Part shown: positions 3,836 to 4,982 of the stretch, in pieces
How the letters are laid out: each line of letters begins with the position of its first letter
Position numbering within the stretch: the stretch's first letter is position 1
Assembly: GCA_017887095.1 (NCBI GenBank)
Contig: JAGHIT010000096.1
Coordinates: 1 to 32,258 of the forward strand
From: Clostridia bacterium
GTDB lineage: Bacteria > Bacillota > Clostridia > Christensenellales > Borkfalkiaceae
DNA length: 32,258 nucleotides
Direction of reading: 5' to 3'
The notes under the pieces: model-generated
What the model was told of the DNA's origin: nothing
Seen by the model: only the letters and a program-made list of their open reading frames with translations
The model's database searches: none
Made by a program: the position numbers and the translations under genes

Positions 3836-3863
3836 TTGACATTTTATTGTTTTTCTGTATAAT
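3836..3863 (+). promoter_or_regulatory. Sigma-A promoter of the DUF3793-flavodoxin operon
   Basis: TTGACA (3836-3841) and TATAAT (3858-3863) have a 16-bp spacer, so transcription should start near 3870, just before the first palindrome. Confidence 0.85.
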
Positions 3864-3872
3864 ATGTTATAG

Positions 3873-3925
3873 GTTCGCATATGCGAACTAAAATTAATTC
3901 CAAATGTTCGCATATGCGAACATTT
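3873..3925 (+). promoter_or_regulatory. Twin palindromic operators GTTCGCATATGCGAAC
   Basis: The 16-bp perfect palindrome GTTCGCATATGCGAAC occurs twice, at 3873-3888 and 3906-3921. The second copy is extended to a perfect 24-bp palindrome at 3902-3925. The centres are 33 bp apart, about three helical turns, so two protein dimers would sit on the same face of the DNA. Both copies lie at or just after the predicted transcript start and before the ATG, the classic place for a repressor. The two copies could instead pair as RNA hairpins in the leader. The cognate regulator is not in the window and I cannot name it. Confidence 0.85.
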
Positions 3926-3937
3926 AAAAGGGACATC

Positions 3938-4477
3938 ATGGACGAAGCAGAATATGTAATCGGAAAGCACTGCGGCGTGACATTTGCGGGGATCAAACCT
4001 GCCAGTCTTGTCTCATTGCACAGGGAGGGAAAAGATGTAATGCGATTTCTTGCACATAAATTTCGCCGCCGCGGATTTTCCTTTGTCGTCATGCGTGAAA
4101 GAAGGGAAAGGATCGCGGTGTATGTCTACCATGGGGAACAGCTGAGAGGGGTGCTCTTTTCGAAGGAAGTGCGTGAATTTCTTTTCTCATTGGGGTATCG
4201 CTATGGGAGCGCAGAAGAAGCGGTGTCGCAGTTGCGGGCGCGCATGCAGGGAGATGTCTTTCCGCATGAAGTGGGAGTATTTTTGGGATATCCTCTGGCA
4301 GATGTACGGGGATTTATGGCAGATCCGCATGGCGGGAGATTGTGCGGCTGCTGGAAGGCTTACGGAGACGAAACGAGGGCTGCAAAAACGTTTGAGCGCT
4401 ATCGACGCTGTTCGTCATCCATATGTCGCATGATGCAAAGCGGAAAATCGCTCGCGCAGATCTTTGGCGTGGGCTGA
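3938..4477 (+). CDS. DUF3793 family protein
   Basis: The 179-residue cytoplasmic protein carries the hallmarks I associate with DUF3793. These are the FPHEVGVFLGYPLADVRGF segment (about 108-126) followed by CGCWKAYGD (136-144) with Cys136 and Cys138. The biochemical role of this family is not established. Members are known mainly from anaerobic Bacillota and Fusobacteria and are often near iron or flavodoxin genes. Here it is the first gene of a two-gene unit with a flavodoxin, 22 nt upstream of it. The in-frame ATG at 3881 is rejected because it lies inside the first operator palindrome. ATG 3938 has AAAAGGGA about 4 nt upstream. The context suggests a part in iron-limitation or redox response, which is inference. 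Confidence 0.83.
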   Translation: MDEAEYVIGKHCGVTFAGIKPASLVSLHREGKDVMRFLAHKFRRRGFSFVVMRERRERIAVYVYHGEQLRGVLFSKEVREFLFSLGYRYGSAEEAVSQLRARMQGDVFPHEVGVFLGYPLADVRGFMADPHGGRLCGCWKAYGDETRAAKTFERYRRCSSSICRMMQSGKSLAQIFGVG

Positions 4478-4499: not shown

Positions 4500-4919
4500 A
4501 TGAAAGTTTCTGTTGTATATTGGTCCGGTACGGGGAATACGGAGGCCATGGCGGCGGCGGTTGCCGAAGGCGCAAAAGGTATGGGCGCGCAGGTCGATAT
4601 TTATCCTGTGAGCGCAGCGAGCGCGGACGTGCTTCGGAGCGATGTATTGTTTTTCGGTTGTCCGGCGATGGGATCGGAGGAGTTGGAGGAAAACGAGTTT
4701 GAACCTTTCTTCTCCGGCATTGAAAGCGGACTTTCGGGCAAAAAGGTCGGTTTGTTCGGGTCTTATGACTGGGGAGACGGCGAGTGGATGCGCATATGGC
4801 AGGCTCGCGTTACTGCGGCCGGCGGTGAGATGATCGCCGACGGGCTGATCTGCAACAATACGCCTGATGACGCGGCGCTTGAACAGTGCCGTGCATTGGG
4901 GGAACGGGCGGCAGAATAG
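4500..4919 (+). CDS. Short-chain flavodoxin
   Basis: The 139-residue protein is a complete short-chain flavodoxin, a soluble one-electron carrier with FMN that replaces ferredoxin when iron is scarce. The phosphate-binding loop is WSGTGNTE (8-15) after the first beta strand MKVSVVY. The region FFGCPAMGSEELEE (about 52-65) provides the first isoalloxazine-contact loop, and FGSYDWGDGEWM (about 86-97) the second, with its aromatic Tyr and Trp. The ORF opens upstream at 4464, but ATG 4500 follows TCGGAGGGATGTT (a Shine-Dalgarno GGAGGG) and gives the normal flavodoxin N-terminus. It ends at a strong terminator. Co-transcription with DUF3793 under the twin palindromes implies shared control. Confidence 0.93.
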   Translation: MKVSVVYWSGTGNTEAMAAAVAEGAKGMGAQVDIYPVSAASADVLRSDVLFFGCPAMGSEELEENEFEPFFSGIESGLSGKKVGLFGSYDWGDGEWMRIWQARVTAAGGEMIADGLICNNTPDDAALEQCRALGERAAE

Positions 4920-4930
4920 GCGCAGATAGG

Positions 4931-4972
4931 TGCGCCCCGCAGCATCTTTCCGATGCTGCGGGGCGCATTTTT
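4931..4972 (+). terminator. Intrinsic terminator after flavodoxin
   Basis: A perfect 16-bp stem (4931-4946 with 4952-4967), loop TTTCC, is followed by TTTTT. Confidence 0.93.
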
Positions 4973-4982
4973 CGTTCGGCGC

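Follow-up and report, generated by a model that had tools for sequence, protein, structure and literature searches.

What reads the two identical palindromes that stand between the promoter and the start codon of a DUF3793-flavodoxin operon in a Clostridia bacterium? The window analysed here, which is the whole stretch of 32,258 nucleotides of contig JAGHIT010000096.1, raises this question at positions 3,873 to 3,925, where an earlier note had proposed an unnamed repressor. In our reading the palindromes are, with high probability, operators for an iron-responsive DtxR-family repressor, in a short form of ~ 120 aa that would lack the third domain of IdeR.

The twin palindromes and their promoter

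A scan of the window finds GTTCGCATATGCGAAC exactly at 3873-3888 and 3906-3921 with the centres 33 bp apart, and direct reading places the second copy inside a 24-bp perfect palindrome at 3902-3925; the earlier description of twin palindromes lying between promoter and ATG is exact at these coordinates. At up to three mismatches the window holds no further copies beyond these two. In 100 shuffles of the window, matches to GTTCGCATATGCGAAC counted at up to three mismatches averaged 0.25 and two such matches arose in 3/100, while both window copies are exact.

The promoter, which had been called strong, matches the consensus at 12 of 12 positions on the forward strand, with a -35 hexamer TTGACA (3836..3841), a 16-nt spacer and a -10 hexamer TATAAT (3858..3863). 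Operator 1 (3873..3888) begins 9 nt past the -10 box and lies over the expected transcription start, a position that was compared with relatives. Operator 2, the 16-mer within 3902..3925, follows 33 bp downstream, and 16 bp separate its end from the ATG at 3938. The gene that starts there (3938..4477, forward) encodes a DUF3793 protein of 179 aa (PF12672, E 5.8e-48) and is followed on the same strand by a short-chain flavodoxin of 139 aa (4500..4919; PF00258, Flavodoxin_1, E 3e-19; TIGR01753 above cut-off). Direct reading places a GC-rich hairpin followed by a T run at 4932..4973 (forward), the probable terminator of the two-gene operon, of which the computed listing gives only a shorter inner stem at 4948-4963. 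The operator spacing had been described as about three helical turns; this holds approximately, 33-34 bp being 3.1-3.2 turns at 10.5 bp per turn. The SOS box of Gram-positive LexA uses GAAC/GTTC half-sites in the order CGAAC...GTTCG, and the half-site order of the window palindromes is the reverse of this box, in agreement with the earlier note.

Recurrence of the palindromes and their place at promoters

The window's genome contains five exact GTTCGC-N4-GCGAAC sites and none of the reversed control, the figures at up to three mismatches being 19 and 12 places respectively. A second 33-bp pair in the same genome (C98:101594/101627) follows a TTGACA/TATAAT promoter and precedes feoA-feoA-feoB, where the identity of the first FeoA and of FeoB was checked by Pfam. 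Furthermore, a single exact copy (C89:15536) precedes an ABC transporter gene that is cut by the contig end and whose counterpart in genome G111 is PF00664. Ten stretches of this genome with sites of two or three mismatches (L005-L014) were scanned as well, and looser palindromes occur in L008 and L011.

Of the 201 family genomes, 19 have the pair pattern at up to two mismatches and 13 the reversed control. The 13 genomes used below are those with the pair at no more than one mismatch and were thus chosen for having a pair; this leaves out G084, G086, G122, G161 and G174, which carry two mismatches, and G078, excluded by eye since it shows two core-exact copies without the outer G/C. G078 nevertheless has two exact sites and a regulator of the Ser39 type described below. 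Among the 40 exact single sites of the 13 pair-selected genomes, 39 precede feo (27), DUF3793 (6), HMA-like-dtxR (3), ABC (2) or YgbA (1) genes and one (G180:C19) is unexplained, compared to three exact sites for the reversed control in the same genomes. It is very probable that GTTCGC-N4-GCGAAC serves an iron regulon as its operator. The iron link and the regulon proposed earlier are borne out by this target list, and the palindrome, rather than being confined to this locus or scattered inside genes, recurs in the same position downstream of the -10 box. In genus g10 a heme/iron-type ABC operon lies behind the operator, its IsdE and FecCD-like models scoring below their cut-offs. YgbA_NO (PF11756) genes stand behind the iron operator at L099 921-1289 and, by likeness, in L019 and L110, and another (L172 6191-6577) stands behind sites with one mismatch; in enterobacteria YgbA is associated with nitrosative stress.

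A scan of named genomes returned 97 stretches with two copies, including Candidatus Gallimonas and other Clostridia MAGs. In 80 of these stretches 92 distances between neighbouring copies were counted: 50 amount to 33 or 34 bp, and 22 of the remaining 42 fall at 44-49 bp, many of them from Inquilinus. The 97 loci hold 100 pair groups, of which 53 have no label, and 44 of these have other spacings, many in Inquilinus or unrelated taxa. Of the nine unlabelled groups at 32-34 bp, six were judged by contig and position to be copies or near copies of counted arrays, L042 precedes a FeoA gene, and L089 and L101 are unexplained. The Inquilinus limosus loci (L054, L055, L058, L063, L070 and others) carry many GTTCGC-N4-GCGAAC pairs 40-49 bp apart with the look of dispersed repeats. 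In an Oscillospiraceae locus (L041 3615-5378), GTTCGCTTTTGCGAAC recurs about every 68 bp, apparently with no iron link. Repeated frames (SIHAPREGCD/STHPVRGAT) with the look of a CRISPR array were seen in G028 at L213 5408-7473, ~ 1.6 kb from an operator-like site.

Promoter anatomy was examined in 67 arrays, for which a recognised downstream gene was required and only exact duplicates were removed (FeoA 32, DUF3793 23, ABC 6, YgbA 3, HMA 3). With transcription starts inferred from the position of the -10 box, the proximal operator begins 7-11 nt past that box in 59 of the 61 clear promoters (score at least 9), and successive operators are spaced by 32-34 bp in 73/97 cases. All 23 DUF3793 arrays have two copies. 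In 13 of the 32 feo arrays a further operator lies on the far side of the -35 box, 79-83 bp upstream of the proximal copy. Across the sites of the arrays, which were picked at no more than one mismatch, the hexamer arms hardly vary, the central four bases are free and the flanks AT-rich. That the palindromes are dispersed repeats without a regulatory role, as the Inquilinus pairs and the Oscillospiraceae tandem array might suggest, is contradicted by position and targets and is scarcely credible: in the window's family the genes behind them are the same few, their place past the -10 box is fixed, and the N4 and spacers vary.

The copies could also act in the 5' leader RNA, either as hairpins or through a long stem between the two. 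Indeed, both window copies are expected in the transcript, and the predicted fold of the leader has -27.1 kcal/mol (z -5.9), a stability reached by 0/200 shuffles. However, this stability was discounted because any two identical palindromes must fold in this way, and in the 13 feo arrays with a copy before the -35 box that copy lies outside the transcript. Moreover, the arms are unequal in 16 of 164 sites, breaking the RNA pair in 12 and leaving G-U in 4 (hand count), and the window has no Rfam match. A role in the leader is very unlikely on these grounds, and we retain the operator reading.

A short DtxR-family protein as candidate regulator

Genome-wide regulator searches were made with profiles of the DtxR and Fur families. 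A PF02742 protein is present in 12 of the 13 pair-selected genomes and is absent only from the window's assembly, which is 83.6% complete and in which the search gave no DtxR-family gene that has the C-terminal domain; a PF01325 match in this genome was rejected as a DtxR since it belongs to a MarR-like protein. Fur (PF01475) is found in 7/13 and is absent from 6 of the 12 near-complete pair genomes, and was rejected as the operator reader on presence. In the window's genome the search found a single Fur-family gene (L015 136-1147, minus strand), which is followed by a rubrerythrin gene, an order that suggests a PerR-type regulator.

The DtxR-type regulators are ~ 120 aa long and end before any third, SH3-like domain. 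The one in L135 scores 34.3 bits with PF01325 (cut-off 26) and 54 bits with PF02742 (cut-off 27). Numbered by alignment to DtxR, the equivalents of Met10, Cys102, Glu105 and His106 are invariant in a 16-row alignment. In a larger set of 91 Fe-type rows, Cys, Glu and His occur in 91/91 and Met in 90/91, with Thr in G026, two Asp-type rows (G060 L145, G164 L138) being set aside from this count. Parts of an IdeR review and of a second article describe the ligand roles and the Met/Cys-x-x-Glu-His set as favouring iron (PMC10317159, PMC4805248).

Could the sensor belong to the DtxR family and read manganese instead of iron? The best PDB match of the regulator is MntR (2h09, E 1e-17), its best NCBIfam model is an MntR, below cut-off, and the review reports in the part used here that several metals activate IdeR in vitro (PMC10317159). 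Against this, iron genes make up the main targets, and the Asp8 and Glu99 of MntR are not matched, Met and Cys standing at those places (ligands as given in portions of PMC10317159 and PMC4805248). We therefore consider a manganese sensor unlikely and keep iron as the probable signal.

Gene linkage points to the same protein. In the named-genome stretches a profile search found dtxR in 4/97, always as the third gene after DUF3793 and flavodoxin, two of these coming from one MAG. The order operator, HMA-like gene, dtxR occurs in 4 of the 12 genomes (G066, G123, G140 and, with one mismatch, G105), while the other 8/12 have no operator directly before dtxR. In the three of these genomes that were scanned, Pfam HMA just passes its cut-off in G123 (L136) and G105 (L139) and misses the gene in G066 (L135). 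The HMA-like gene between operator and dtxR (L136 960-1674, L135 900-1674, L134, L139) carries GMHCGMC, and its product is possibly a small metal-binding partner of the regulator. In genus g10 the gene directly behind an operator encodes a second HTH protein, which matches Fe_dep_repress weakly and lacks a PF02742 hit (L216 4621-4995, minus strand; similar in L209 and L210), and in L216 an IsdE-like and FecCD-like transport operon is close by. In G164 an operator pair and a YgbA-like gene are immediately preceded by a shortened dtxR-like frame, apparently a remnant (L183 2212-2364, minus strand).

Across the 201 family genomes, the regulator alignment has a match in 159, the exact operator is present in 69 and the reversed control in 50. 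Genomes that match at E 1e-50 or better have the operator more often than the rest (41/57 vs 28/144, p 4e-12). The threshold was set after viewing the match list, 1e-53 and 1e-40 agreeing in direction, and the result is favoured because the alignment was built from operator genomes. Outside the window's genus g1 the figures are 18/31 vs 25/141 (p 1e-5), compared to p 0.82 for the reversed-pattern control. Within genera the association gives p 0.002 in g10, 0.056 in g8 and 0.10 in g3; g9 has no sites, g2 has no high-scoring member, and g6 is opposite in direction (0/2 vs 2/3). The exact GTTCGC site is absent in 16 of the 57 genomes with a high-scoring regulator. Furthermore, G135 (95% complete) has two sites and no regulator match, and G117 has three sites and only a distant match (E 1.8e-17).

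Another transcription factor, such as a Fur/PerR, LexA, TetR or MarR protein, might read the palindromes. The window's own genome does have the Fur-family gene by rubrerythrin and the MarR-like gene with a weak DtxR score, and several loci have a TetR-like gene ahead of the ABC gene. However, in the loci that were read the TetR-like gene is seen only beside ABC genes, Fur is missing from half of the near-complete pair genomes, and the SOS box has the other half-site order. Such a factor would also leave the DtxR linkage and the association with the recognition helix presented below without explanation, and we regard it as quite unlikely. Co-occurrence, linkage and helix association together narrow the unnamed regulator of the earlier note to a DtxR-family candidate.

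A second operator type, the recognition helix and known systems

Genera g9 and g2 mostly carry GTTAGC-N4-GCTAAC instead (7/9 and 10/15 genomes, hand count), often paired 34-35 bp apart, and in G019 and G035 a GTTAGC pair lies between divergent dtxR and feoA genes. The recognition helix was compared in a set of 94 rows, made of hand-picked best matches per genome down to about E 1e-38, a part of all matching genomes, together with earlier ones; omission of the two Asp-type rows and of the second G060 copy left 91, one per genome. At residue 39 in DtxR numbering these 91 Fe-type regulators have Ser (56) or Pro (35). Residue 37 is Ala/Val in 53/56 of the Ser39 and Ser/Thr in 35/35 of the Pro39 regulators, and residue 43 is Arg in 82/91 (Asn 4, Lys 3, Val 1, Ala 1).

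The two kinds of helix go with different operators. At least one GTTCGC site is present in 45/56 Ser39 and 4/35 Pro39 genomes, at least one GTTAGC site in 11/56 and 26/35. With at least two sites required, GTTCGC occurs in 35/56 and 0/35 and GTTAGC in 0/56 and 18/35 respectively. By prevailing type, Ser39 genomes divide into 41 GTTCGC, 3 GTTAGC, 4 ties and 8 without sites, and Pro39 genomes into 1 GTTCGC, 23 GTTAGC, 3 ties and 8 without (Fisher p 7e-14, uncorrected for kinship). The rule is broken in G103, G047, G005 and G175, by one site each, and genera g3 and g8 contain both kinds. Moreover, within 600 bp upstream of the regulator gene an exact GTTAGC palindrome lies before 13/35 Pro39 genes and GTTCGC before none, 0.003 GTTAGC palindromes being expected across all 92 upstream regions at equal base frequencies; for the 57 Ser39 rows (G060 counted twice) the same distance holds GTTCGC in 3 and GTTAGC in none.

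A class-wide draw of 245 genomes, the window's own family included, gave some regulator-alignment match in 174. In the 30 loci returned, residue 39 is Pro in 25, Ser in 3 (L366, L369, L395) and Ala in 2, and the metal-site Met is replaced by Asn in 9. Exact GTTAGC palindromes occur in L370, L373, L381, L382 and L393, all with Pro39 and Met, i.e. in 5 of the 18 loci of that kind, and GTTCGC in none of the 30, including the three Ser39 ones. In a tree from which the helix columns had been left out, at least four changes fall on residue 39 and at least five on the operator. The tree offers three independent pairs, which on average are concordant in 1.8, opposite in 0 and without difference in 1.2, and with only three such pairs the covariation loses its significance when kinship is taken out.

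According to the IdeR review, Gln43 contacts the first base, the third is contacted by Ser37 and Pro39, recognition is not abolished when contact residues are mutated, and IdeR is reported to read mainly DNA shape (PMC10317159). We lean towards the view that a DtxR clade widespread in clostridia has undergone a natural switch of specificity. Exchange of Pro39 for Ser, with Ser37 mostly becoming Ala, would flip base 3 of the half-site from T to G (GTTAGC to GTTCGC), and Arg43 in place of the Gln43 of IdeR would go with G and not C as first base. Single dimers on half-sites spaced by 4 bp, with a 33-35 bp period, would replace the two-dimer IdeR box. Since the IdeR contact mutants keep recognition, an effect of DNA shape offers a fair alternative account of the switch's mechanism. 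The review itself asks, in the part drawn on here, whether single-dimer half-sites exist in other species and whether base contacts or DNA shape set specificity (PMC10317159), and the present operators touch both questions. Should the switch be true, base contacts help to set specificity in the DtxR family, and the Pro39/T3 and Ser39/G3 pairs are ready material for a test of contacts against shape.

The model for the locus has as its computed basis the sites, their positions and targets, the gene linkage, the metal-ligand residues and the helix-operator association, to which we add, by inference, binding, Fe2+ as signal, repression, cooperativity and the role of DUF3793. With ample Fe2+, the regulator would bind as one dimer per GTTCGC-N4-GCGAAC. 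The proximal copy, 7-11 nt past the -10 box, would cover the transcription start and block RNA polymerase, and the copies 33-34 bp downstream, as well as those ~ 80 bp upstream in 13/32 feo promoters, would add occupancy. When iron is scarce the block would be lifted, FeoAB and the other targets would be made, and flavodoxin would be made with DUF3793 and replace iron-sulphur electron carriers. For iron control in gut Clostridia, of which some have no Fur gene, the results provide an operator sequence together with a probable regulator and a list of targets, and they link DUF3793, a protein of obscure role, to iron limitation. A search of open-access literature, mostly at the level of titles, found no description of GTTCGC/GTTAGC operators, its matches for GTTAGC and DtxR being by title mostly actinomycete work, and for DUF3793 it returned no match beyond a fungal study.

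Among known systems, Fur controls feo, flavodoxin and heme and siderophore uptake. The target list here is similar, but Fur belongs to another protein family and is lacking in those six near-complete operator-pair genomes. The LexA/SOS box of Gram-positive bacteria shares the GAAC/GTTC half-sites, in reversed order, and the present sites are followed mainly by iron genes. MntR of Escherichia coli (PDB 2h09) is the best-scoring solved sequence and has the same two-domain length; it is, however, a manganese regulator with Asp/Asn and Glu in place of Met10 and Cys102, as given in part of the IdeR review (PMC10317159), in a comparison confined to the protein.

In domains, ligands and operator position there is a likeness to DtxR/IdeR of actinomycetes, which have the same Pfam domains and the equivalent Met10, Cys102, Glu105 and His106. 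From what parts of the review give, the operator lies over the transcription start, here the expected one, and the 4-bp spacing is that of the IdeR half-site (PMC10317159). The IdeR/DtxR box overlaps the -10 region or start of repressed genes, which is matched here in the 59/61 promoters with inferred starts. The sites found, GTTCGC-N4-GCGAAC or GTTAGC-N4-GCTAAC, differ in sequence from the 19-bp IdeR box TTAGGTTAGSCTAACCTAA, which TTCGC-N4-GCGAA replaces at these sites, and their GCGAA or GCTAA repeats have the same spacer. In contrast to IdeR and DtxR, the clostridial regulators are without the third (SH3-like) domain, their GTTCGC group differs at helix residues 39 and 40 and mostly also at 37 and 43, and each place holds one palindrome, repeated at 33-34 bp. 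We conclude that the window's palindromes most probably represent an iron operator of the DtxR family with a new type of sequence, set in phased arrays.
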